Program-made: the position numbers and the translations under genes
Part shown: piece by piece, positions 24,707 to 31,049 of the stretch
How the letters are laid out: each line of letters begins with the position of its first letter
Numbering within the stretch: the stretch's first letter is position 1
The notes under the pieces: model-generated
Told to the model about the DNA's origin: nothing
Database searches by the model: none
What the model saw: only the letters and a program-made list of their open reading frames with translations
Origin: Capsulimonadaceae bacterium
Lineage (GTDB): Bacteria > Armatimonadota > Armatimonadia > Armatimonadales > Capsulimonadaceae
Reading direction: 5' to 3'
Assembly (NCBI GenBank): GCA_031292625.1
Contig: JARLGU010000031.1
Location: 62,001 to 126,000 of the forward strand
Length of the DNA stretch: 64,000 bases

Positions 24707-25690
24707 TTATCCGAAGCTGGCGAGGATTTCTGCCTGAGAGATCGTGGCGACGCCGACCTTCTTCACCGCCTCCGCGGCCGCGCGGTTGGCGAGGGTAACG
24801 GCTTCCACCGGCGTCGCGCCAACGGCCAGTGCCAGGGTCATTGCGCTGATGACCGTATCCCCCGCTCCCGCGACATCGTAGACCTCCACCGGACGCGCGG
24901 CGACATGGTGCGGAGAGCTGGGATGGCTTGCGAAGAAGAGGGAGAGGCCTTGCGAACCTCGCGTGATCAGGATGTGCTCCGAACCGGTGCGCGCAAGCAG
25001 CTCTTGACCGGCTTCCAGGACCTTAGCGTCGCTGTCCAGCGGCTCGGCGCCGACGGCCTGTCCGGCTTCCAGCAGGTTGAGCGTCAATACGGTGAGCGAT
25101 GTCTTGGCGGTGATCGTCCGCGGCTTCAGGTTGCCGGTGATCGGGATGCCGCGCTCTTTCGCGATGCGGACGCTCGCATCGATAACTTCGGTTCCGAGGA
25201 CGCCCTTGATATAATCGGAAAGCACGATCGCGTGAGCGTTCGCCGCAAGCCGTTCGATTTGGTCGATCAGCTTGGCGATAATGTCCGGCCCGAGATGGCC
25301 GCGCTTTTCGTGGTCGACGCGAACGATCTGCTGCGAGTGCGCAATTACCCGCGTCTTACGGGTGGTTGGCCGGTCCGTCAGCGTGATCAAACCGTCGACA
25401 TCCGCGCCCTCGCCCCTCAGCGAGTCGCGTAGAGTCTCCGCGGCGGCGTCATCGCCGACCGTGCCGACAATCACTCCCGTGGCCCCGAGGGCGCACAGGT
25501 TGTTGACGACATTGGCGGCGCCTCCCGGAACTTGCGAATATCGTTCGGCATCGACGACGATAACGGGAGCTTCCGGCGAGATCCGGTTTACCTTGCCCCA
25601 GATATACTCGTCAAGCATAACGTCACCGACGACGACAATCTGCTTGCCGGAGAGGAGCGAGAATATTTCCTTGGCGCGTTGTTTATTCAT
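24707..25690 (-). CDS. D-glycero-beta-D-manno-heptose-7-phosphate kinase (PfkB family)
   Basis: The enzyme phosphorylates heptose 7-phosphate at C1 on the way to ADP-heptose for LPS inner core or a glycoprotein. It has 327 residues and matches the kinase domain of HldE/RfaE without the nucleotidyltransferase half. Landmarks are VVVGDVMLDEYIWG at the start, PGGAANV (sugar-binding), and the PfkB signature DVAGAGDTV with the catalytic Asp. The heptosyltransferase-like gene at 62632-63816 is a possible downstream consumer. The adenylyltransferase partner is not in the window. Confidence 0.88.
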   Translation of the reverse strand: MNKQRAKEIFSLLSGKQIVVVGDVMLDEYIWGKVNRISPEAPVIVVDAERYSQVPGGAANVVNNLCALGATGVIVGTVGDDAAAETLRDSLRGEGADVDGLITLTDRPTTRKTRVIAHSQQIVRVDHEKRGHLGPDIIAKLIDQIERLAANAHAIVLSDYIKGVLGTEVIDASVRIAKERGIPITGNLKPRTITAKTSLTVLTLNLLEAGQAVGAEPLDSDAKVLEAGQELLARTGSEHILITRGSQGLSLFFASHPSSPHHVAARPVEVYDVAGAGDTVISAMTLALAVGATPVEAVTLANRAAAEAVKKVGVATISQAEILASFG

Positions 25691-28077: not shown

Positions 28078-30723
28078 CTATCCCCCCAGAGCCGCCCGGC
28101 GCTCCTTGAGCTTGGCTTCCTTTTCGGTCAGTTCCGCATAGCGCTCGCGGTCCTTAGCCACAATGTCCGGCGCGGCATTTGCGACGAATCGCGGGTTGGC
28201 GAGTTTGCCGCCGACAACGCGAAGGTCCTTTTCGACGCCGGCAAGCTCGGTTTCGATGCGTGCCCTTTCTTTGTCGAAGTCGATCACGCCTTCAAGCGGC
28301 AGATACAGGTCCAGCCCAGGCGCGATCGGCAGAGCGATCGATTTCTTATCCGCCGGCGCTTTCGGCGCCAGTACAAGCGAGCGAACCTTGGCGAGAGTCT
28401 CGAACGCCAGCGCGTTGTCCTTAAGCACCCAGCCGGAGTCGTCCTCGGAGACCAAAGTGGCGTCGAGCGGCAGCGACGGGGCGATGCTCAGTTCGGCGCG
28501 GGCGTTGCGGACGGCGCGGATTGCGGTGATCAGCAGGTGCATCTGACGTTCCGCTTCGTCGTCGATCAGCGCGTCGTCGGCGACGGGATAGGGCGCGAAC
28601 ATGATGCTGGTTTCGTGCCCGATGCTCCGGAAGATCTCCTCGGTGAGGAACGGCATGAACGGATGCAGGAGACGCAGGGATGAATCCAATACATCGATCA
28701 GCGCTCGACGCGCGCGGGCCTTTTCCTCAAGGTCGTCGCTGCGCAATGCCGGCTTGGAAAGCTCGACAAACCAGTCGCAGTAGTCGTTCCAGAAGAACTC
28801 GGTAATCGCGCGGCACGCTTCGTCGAGATCGTATGTCTCCAGCGACTCGCCGACGGTGCGGGCGGTGCGCTGCAGGCGGCTATAGATCCAGCGTACGTGC
28901 AGCGGGGCGTCTGCCAGGTTCTCGGGCGAATCATCGCCGGTGACGGCGGCTTCGTTCATCAGAGCGAACCGTGCGGCATTCCAAATCTTCGTGCAGAAGT
29001 TGCGCGATTCGGGGATACGGTCTTCGCTAAACCGGATGTCCTGCCCTTTTGACGCAAGGCGCATCAATGAGAAGCGCAGTGCGTCCGCGCCATACTTGTC
29101 GATCATTTCCAGCGGGTCGATTCCGTTGCCCAGGCTCTTGGACATGCGCCGGCCCTGCTTATCCAGCACGGTGGCATAAATGTAGACGTCGTCGAACGGC
29201 GCTTTGCCGGTGAACTCGACGCCGGTCATAATCATGCGCGCCACCCACAAGAACAAGATCTCGCGCGCCGTTGTGAGGACGTTCGTCGGATAGAAGCGGC
29301 GAAGATCGTCCGTGTCGCCGGGCCAGCCGAGGGTCGCGAACGGCCACAGGGCCGATGAGAACCACGTATCGAGCACATCTTCGTCCTGACGCAACGTATC
29401 CACCGGGACGCCCAGCTTGACGGCGGCGTCGGCGATCGTCTTCGCTGCGGTAAAGCGGCCATCGTGCGCGTAGAAAATCGGGATGCGATGCCCCCACCAG
29501 AGCTGGCGGGAGATGCACCAGTCGCGGATGTTTTCGAGCCAGTCGAGGCTGATCCGCTTGTAACGATCGGGAATAAACTTGACCGAATCGTCTTCGATCG
29601 CGGCAACGCACTTCTCGATCATCTTCGTGCCAGCCATGCGCGCAAACCACTGCTCGGAAAGAAGCGGCTCGATGATCGTGTGACAGCGTTCGCACGTGCC
29701 GACGGAATGGCGGTAGTCCTCGATGTTGACGAGGTAGCCTTGCGCGGTTAGATCTTCAACAACCGCTTCGCGCGCTTCTTCACGGGTGAGCCCCGCGTAC
29801 TTGTCGCCCGCCTCCGCGGTCATGCGCCCGGTCTCGCCGATGACGACCGTCATTGGCAGGCCGTGGCGTTTGCCGGCTTCGTAGTCGTTGAGGTCGTGCG
29901 CTGGCGTCACCTTCACGGCGCCGGTGCCAAACTCGAGCGAAGCGTAGTCGTCGTAGATCAGCGGGATGTGCCGCCCGGTCAGCGGAAGGATCAGCATGCG
30001 CCCTTCCATGCCGGCGTAGCGCGGGTCAGCGGGATTCACCGCAACCGCCGTATCGCCAAGCATCGTCTCGGGGCGAGTCGTCGCGACCGTTACGGAGCCG
30101 TTGCCGTCCACGAAGTCGTAGCGGATATGCCACAGATGGCTGTCCCGCTCAACATATTCGACTTCGATGTCCGAAAGCGCGGTCGCGCAGCGCGGACACC
30201 AATTGATGACGCGCGCGCCCCGATAGATCATGCCCGAGTCGAACATGCGCACAAACTCTTCGAGGATCGCGTCCACATACGTCTCGTCCATCGTGAAGCG
30301 CTCGCGCTCCCAATCGAACGCGCATCCGAGCCCCTGCATCTGCGAGATGATCCGTGCGCCGTATTGCTGCTTCCAGGCCCAGACGCGCTCAAGGAATTTC
30401 TCGCGGCCCAGGTCGTGGCGGGTGAGCCCTTCACGGGCGATCTCTTTTTCGACGACGTTCTGCGTGGCGATCCCGGCATGGTCGACGCCCGGCAGAATCA
30501 GCACCTGCCGCCCCTGCATCCGACGCCACCGCCCAAGCGCATCCTGGATCGTGTAGCAAACGGCGTGCCCCATGTGCAGGCTCCCCGTAACATTGGGCGG
30601 CGGGATGGTAATCGTATACGGCCGGCCATTGCCCTCTTGCGCCTCGGGCTTGAAATATCCCGCGCTCTTCCAGTCTGCGTACCATTTGGCCTCGACGGCC
30701 TTCGGATCGAATTTTGTTTCCAC
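28078..30723 (-). CDS. valS: Valyl-tRNA synthetase
   Basis: ValRS charges tRNA-Val. The 881-residue protein shows the class I signature HMGH at about 50-53 (after PPPNVTGSL), the KMSKS loop as RRMSKSLGN, a C-CRC-type zinc-like pair region, an anticodon-binding domain and a C-terminal coiled-coil arm (VEKDLRVVGGKL...). A GTG at 30723 is preferred as start, because GGAAGGTAGG lies just before it; a GTG at 30741 would add six residues. The gene is preceded by a T-box leader, so it should be induced when uncharged tRNA-Val accumulates. Confidence 0.97.
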   Translation of the reverse strand: METKFDPKAVEAKWYADWKSAGYFKPEAQEGNGRPYTITIPPPNVTGSLHMGHAVCYTIQDALGRWRRMQGRQVLILPGVDHAGIATQNVVEKEIAREGLTRHDLGREKFLERVWAWKQQYGARIISQMQGLGCAFDWERERFTMDETYVDAILEEFVRMFDSGMIYRGARVINWCPRCATALSDIEVEYVERDSHLWHIRYDFVDGNGSVTVATTRPETMLGDTAVAVNPADPRYAGMEGRMLILPLTGRHIPLIYDDYASLEFGTGAVKVTPAHDLNDYEAGKRHGLPMTVVIGETGRMTAEAGDKYAGLTREEAREAVVEDLTAQGYLVNIEDYRHSVGTCERCHTIIEPLLSEQWFARMAGTKMIEKCVAAIEDDSVKFIPDRYKRISLDWLENIRDWCISRQLWWGHRIPIFYAHDGRFTAAKTIADAAVKLGVPVDTLRQDEDVLDTWFSSALWPFATLGWPGDTDDLRRFYPTNVLTTAREILFLWVARMIMTGVEFTGKAPFDDVYIYATVLDKQGRRMSKSLGNGIDPLEMIDKYGADALRFSLMRLASKGQDIRFSEDRIPESRNFCTKIWNAARFALMNEAAVTGDDSPENLADAPLHVRWIYSRLQRTARTVGESLETYDLDEACRAITEFFWNDYCDWFVELSKPALRSDDLEEKARARRALIDVLDSSLRLLHPFMPFLTEEIFRSIGHETSIMFAPYPVADDALIDDEAERQMHLLITAIRAVRNARAELSIAPSLPLDATLVSEDDSGWVLKDNALAFETLAKVRSLVLAPKAPADKKSIALPIAPGLDLYLPLEGVIDFDKERARIETELAGVEKDLRVVGGKLANPRFVANAAPDIVAKDRERYAELTEKEAKLKERRAALGG

Positions 30724-30741: not shown

Positions 30742-31030
30742 ATCGACTAACTCAGCGCCCTGAGGAGCCCGGCCTCAACTCGCGGCCTCTCAAACACACA
30801 AAGCCCCGGCGTGCCTCGCACGAACTGCCGGCTGCGTTGCCGGCCTTCATGCAAGGACGCCGGGGCTCGAAAAGCCCAGCGCGGTACCACCTTGCTTCCG
30901 CGGACGAATCCGCGGCACTCGAACGAACATGGCTCCAGGGCGACGTTCAGCGCTTCGCGGCGGAGGTTTTCACCAATTCCTCCTCTCTGCAAGCCACGGG
31001 CAGCGCCTACTCTTCCCTCTCACGGCCTTG
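30742..31030 (-). promoter_or_regulatory. T-box riboswitch leader of valS
   Basis: Read on the minus strand, the leader has the conserved stem I elements AGTA, GCAGAGAGG and TTGGTGAAAACC (30965-30976). The specifier codon GTC follows in the context TGAAC-GTC (30942-30944), which is a valine codon. The antiterminator bears the T-box AAGGTGGTACCGCG (30880-30893). Its UGGU bulge fits a tRNA with discriminator A, as in tRNA-Val. Uncharged tRNA-Val would stabilise the antiterminator and let transcription reach valS. Specifier, bulge and gene agree, which makes the assignment firm. Confidence 0.93.
30803..30866 (-). terminator. T-box-controlled intrinsic terminator
   Basis: On the minus strand GCCCCGGCGT pairs with ACGCCGGGGC across a structured loop and is followed by TTTGTGTGTTT. 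It lies just past the T-box sequence and competes with the antiterminator. Confidence 0.85.
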
Positions 31031-31037
31031 ATGCTGC

Positions 31038-31049
31038 ATTATACCATGC
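31038..31049 (-). promoter_or_regulatory. Extended -10 promoter element of the valS leader
   Basis: TATAAT on the minus strand (31038-31043) is preceded by TGG, an extended -10. The -35 match is weak. Initiation about 7 bases downstream would give a leader starting near 31030. Confidence 0.55.

Follow-up and report, generated by a model that had tools for sequence, protein, structure and literature searches.

The 64,000-nucleotide stretch of DNA analysed here (the window), which comes from a 5.77 Mb draft genome of the Armatimonadota, raises the question of whether the leader of its valyl-tRNA synthetase gene (valS) is a tRNA-sensing T-box, and of which parts of such an element it retains. 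Infernal places a match to RF00230 directly 5' of valS, at 30850-31032 (-), with 81.4 bits, an E-value of 4.5e-18 and model positions 1-219, the full model length; this E-value puts the element beyond chance. A default Rfam scan misses it because the curated cut-off, 93 bits, exceeds the score; the gathering-threshold scan of the window accordingly reported no T-box, and the element was recovered by the E-value scan instead. An earlier note had proposed a T-box controlling valS, and the match, the gene downstream and the specificity described below bear this out; the Infernal search that it suggested as a check also succeeded, with GUC as the specifier, albeit at a score under the curated cut-off. 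We take the leader to be a genuine tRNA-sensing T-box of an Armatimonadota bacterium, and it is one by every feature testable here, with function read from the sequence. Matches of the window to microRNA and similar Rfam families arise by chance from the terminator hairpin.

The putative promoter is marked by a probable -10 box, TATAAT, at 31038-31043 (-), preceded by TGG as in an extended -10, and the position of this box would put the RNA start at about 31031; by sequence comparison, several relatives have a TATACT-like box in the corresponding position. The consensus promoter scan, which requires a -35, did not report the extended -10. Stem I (30932-31028 (-)), as aligned to RF00230, comprises a K-turn (UGA ... 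GGAGC), a loop-E AGUA, the specifier internal loop and distal AGAGA and UUGGUGAAA loops, the latter two being the predicted binders of the tRNA elbow. An 11-nt linker, CAUGUUCGUUC (30921-30931 (-)), in which no pseudoknot or hairpin was detected, replaces Stem II and the Stem IIA/B pseudoknot, and leads to the RRRNG purine motif GAGUG (30916-30920 (-)) 5' of Stem III and to the Stem III hairpin itself, CCGCGGAUUCGUCCGCGG (30898-30915 (-)). The antiterminator, GCAAGG-[UGGUACC]-GCG...CGUCCUUGC, occupies 30851-30895 (-), with its UGGU bulge at 30889-30886 (-), and the terminator hairpin and its interrupted T-run occupy 30792-30867 (-), with arms at 30867-30850 and 30820-30802. The pieces named in the earlier note, namely the Stem I motifs, GUC, the T-box GCAAGGUGGUACCGCG with UGGU and the terminator hairpin, are all found in the right order. 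The valS gene (28078-30723 (-), identified by Pfam and NCBIfam valS) most likely starts with GTG at 30723, which we prefer to the mechanical open reading frame from 30741, and its ribosome site is GGAAGGTAGG, at about 30739-30730.

The specifier codon is GUC, for valine, at 30944-30942 (-), in the context GAAC-GUC-GCCC and the register GAA-N-xxx-N-CCC. Reading specifiers from the closing-helix register, we find GUC in all 25 valS T-boxes compared, with varying flanking bases. It matches both the downstream gene and a tRNA that the source genome encodes, tRNA-Val(GAC), whose end, ...CCACCA, supplies an ACCA complementary to the UGGU bulge. The agreement of codon, bulge and gene noted earlier therefore holds, and extends to the tRNA.

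The antiterminator and the terminator are mutually exclusive, the 5' arm of the terminator being the 3' arm of the antiterminator. In a comparison of 12 distinct versions drawn from Armatimonadota valS T-boxes, helix A1 of the antiterminator covaries, with a score of 0.664 versus 0.218 in shuffles (none of 500 shuffles as high), and the signal is lost when the partner is shifted by one to three columns; 95.8% of cells are paired and four of the six pairs have changes on both sides, a pair count that omits L204, in which the 3' strand of the antiterminator was not locatable. For the terminator region the folding energy is -68.8 kcal/mol. Compared as rivals for the strand that they have in common, the antiterminator reaches -22.2 and the terminator -56.9 kcal/mol, and when unconstrained the terminator fold is better by about 20 kcal/mol; energies that favour the terminator in this way are expected for a kinetic, tRNA-assisted switch, but are no proof of one. 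The earlier note had described a terminator with a T-run, and while the hairpin stands (z = -8.4 versus shuffles), the T-run is interrupted (UUUGUGUGUUU, 30802-30792) and is the one weak item in that description.

What the earlier note overlooked is the missing Stem II domain, which we consider the more telling feature. Only 16 nt (CAUGUUCGUUC-GAGUG) separate the K-turn from Stem III, with neither Stem II nor the pseudoknot, and both are likewise absent from each of the six valS-type T-boxes detected in the source family, where 9-14 nt lie 5' of the purine motif. This short layout recurs in G015 and in four genomes of a single genus in the sister family, whereas the valS T-boxes of G007, G008, G010 and G011 keep the pseudoknot and have only 4-5 nt in the place of Stem II, and those of G014 and, outside the order, of the other families have Stem II plus the pseudoknot. 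The valS T-box of a named member of the Chthonomonadaceae, also Armatimonadota, has both as well, and in a search of named loci for T-boxes 5' of valS it alone passed the cut-off. G018, whose stretch is longer and may form a hairpin but has no pseudoknot, was not classed; a pseudoknot match in L159 was discounted, as it falls in repeats of the L159 Stem III; L195 has the F-box CCCGUUA and does not match the strict pseudoknot pattern; and for the families that follow L210 the pseudoknots were identified by visual inspection. Within the source order, then, the valS T-boxes form, as judged by their predicted parts, a series from Stem II plus pseudoknot through pseudoknot only to neither. On a ValS tree, in which the forks between families are partly unresolved, the state with neither domain needs three changes, a number forced by well-supported branches. 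The ilvB T-boxes examined from the order keep a pseudoknot, as do many of those before thrC-like genes, and the loss therefore concerns the valS T-boxes and is repeated. From this pattern of about 25 sequences, some of them from draft genomes, it seems probable that the Stem II-less layout is not confined to glycine, and that Stem II disappeared repeatedly from the valS T-boxes of Armatimonadota, accompanied in several lineages by the IIA/B pseudoknot, so that elements with the pseudoknot and no Stem II survive today as intermediates.

We are confident that the leader would act as a transcription-attenuating T-box that makes valS dependent on uncharged tRNA-Val(GAC) and that has lost Stem II and the IIA/B pseudoknot. 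The GUC specifier in Stem I would pair with the anticodon of tRNA-Val(GAC), while the distal double T-loop would grip the tRNA elbow; a short single-stranded linker, similar to that of glyQS, would join Stem I to the discriminator domain. With uncharged tRNA, the ACCA end would pair with the UGGU bulge and the antiterminator would be held, so that RNA polymerase reads into valS; with charged tRNA, the 3' arm of the antiterminator would become part of the terminator hairpin, which is very stable, and transcription would stop. Fairly strong pairing of codon and anticodon presumably allows the long Stem I to suffice without Stem II.

Because the T-run 3' of the hairpin is interrupted, another output has a small probability, and a translational T-box, in which the switch would hide or free the valS ribosome-binding site and transcription would not be ended, could also account for the failure of the consensus terminator scan to report a terminator. 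That scan, however, allows loops of 3-8 nt only, which the long, interrupted hairpin does not fit; the ribosome site lies some 60 nt past the hairpin, outside both folds; relatives have the same hairpin with cleaner T-runs such as GGGCUUUUUUGU and GGCUUUUUGUG; and Stem I is long, as in transcriptional T-boxes (PMC7583486). We therefore think a translational switch unlikely. Even less probable is a decaying relic that dispensed with Stem II since tRNA sensing had already been lost, as might be read from the low Rfam score and from the absence here of a domain that related T-boxes have. Family members without Stem II have the Stem I motifs, GUC, UGGU, the purine motif, Stem III and both competing hairpins intact; their antiterminator pairing has been maintained although the ValS proteins of these genomes are 67% and 63% identical to the nearest, a divergence of a third or more; and the loss has occurred repeatedly. 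We infer that the loss was functional, and that transcription attenuation in response to tRNA-Val(GAC) is the likely physiological role of the leader.

Two further T-boxes are present in the source genome, which thus has three, before ilvB (acetolactate synthase), valS and a threonine-synthase-like (thrC-like) gene, and relatives have others before leuA-like, ilvD, pheS, ilvC and probably ileS genes (names read from the proteins). The ilvB T-box has the specifier CUC, for leucine, in a genome that has tRNA-Leu(GAG), and keeps its pseudoknot; in the thrC-like one (L148:2393-2850, corresponding to C18:40392-40850) an F-box-like CCCGUUA is the only pseudoknot part seen. The methionine specifier AUG is present in all 12 thrC-like T-box loci (L148, L150, L153, L156, L158, L161, L167, L174, L181, L187, L201 and L218). 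A second ThrC copy in the source genome has no T-box match and lies near a homoserine dehydrogenase-like gene. A PF01053 enzyme is absent from five of the 11 genomes with a T-boxed ThrC copy, and PF01837 was found in none of the 13 genomes searched; the T-boxed paralogue may be a homocysteine synthase that uses O-phosphohomoserine. The bulge is UGGA in three of the 12 (L148, L156 and L201), where the tRNA indicated by the bulge is not the one indicated by the specifier: of the three tRNA-Met genes in the source genome, two end in ACCA, which does not match UGGA, and its tRNA-Thr genes end in UCCA. An initiator-like tRNA-Met gene (L281:137-213, on C34 of the source genome) has the sequence ...CCCCCGCTCCCA, with an unusual C at position 73 before CCA.

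The earlier note had also called the bacterium apparently diderm, and had drawn attention to a T-box as unusual in such a cell. LpxC, an enzyme of lipid A synthesis, is encoded in the source genome and in 278 of the 291 genomes of the phylum, which makes a diderm cell with lipid A likely and upholds the first point; a heptose-7-phosphate kinase-like gene in the window (24707-25690 (-)), with an rfaE domain I just under the cut-off, fits an LPS-type outer membrane. The second point is the right angle but is not special to the window, for T-boxes are present in 151 of the 291 Armatimonadota genomes, 143 of them together with LpxC and eight without an LpxC match. T-box control of amino-acid genes is thus widespread in Armatimonadota, a diderm phylum. 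It appears to be absent from whole branches, since in some families (e.g. f14 and f27; G080-G092 and others) the genomes examined have LpxC and no T-box. In one locus (L162, G005:C160) a valS-type T-box, with GUC and without Stem II, is followed by a 485-aa gene unlike valS, reflecting an insertion, a rearrangement or a misassembly. T-boxes outside the Firmicutes and Actinobacteria are also found on amino-acid genes in Geobacter and Pelobacter (leuA), Deinococcus (isoleucine and glycine tRNA ligases) and Dehalococcoides (PMC2494555); the table of that survey does not include Armatimonadota, whose genomes differ in having several genes per genome under T-boxes. We found no paper joining T-boxes with Armatimonadota or Armatimonadetes in the open-access literature searched.

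The reduced valine T-box is relevant to the classification of these elements, since T-box classes are partly defined by the presence of Stem II. The absence of Stem II from glycine T-boxes has been ascribed to strong GGC:GCC pairing, Stem II being essential only for A-U-rich codons, and the preference for C at the third codon position has been attributed to the Stem II S-turn (PMC7583486). GUC, which forms two G-C pairs, agrees with the idea of pairing strength, but the ilvB specifier CUC has an equal G-C content and its T-box keeps the domain, so that pairing strength alone is not decisive; the retention of C at the third position where no S-turn exists must have a different cause or be simply inherited. 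If our reading of the losses is right, it would fit a need for Stem II mainly with weak, A-U-rich codon-anticodon pairs, and it would mean that loss of Stem II need not entail loss of the pseudoknot and that a preference for C at the third position can outlast the S-turn said to impose it. The valine leader and its relatives with the whole or half of the domain provide matched natural constructs for the roles of Stem II, the pseudoknot and the C-rule.

In comparison with known systems, the leader resembles Class I T-boxes such as that of Bacillus subtilis tyrS in its long K-turn Stem I, specifier internal loop, elbow-binding distal loops, T-box bulge, Stem III, antiterminator/terminator switch and aminoacyl-tRNA synthetase target, but Class I elements have a Stem II with an S-turn and a Stem IIA/B pseudoknot (F-box), both of which it lacks. 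With the Class II T-box of B. subtilis glyQS it shares the long Stem I, a feature that goes with transcriptional T-boxes (PMC7583486), the short single-stranded linker to the discriminator domain, the absence of Stem II and, by prediction only in the valine leader, a transcriptional output. Class II T-boxes are, however, described as glycine-specific (PMC10482949), with GGC in glyQS, whereas this leader has the valine codon GUC and precedes valS; no report of a Stem II-less, non-glycine T-box was found in the open-access literature searched. By its predicted structure, therefore, the leader is not Class I, and is Class II in architecture and not in specificity. Nearby relatives within the phylum have Class I valS T-boxes, and its layout thus probably arose separately from that of glyQS.
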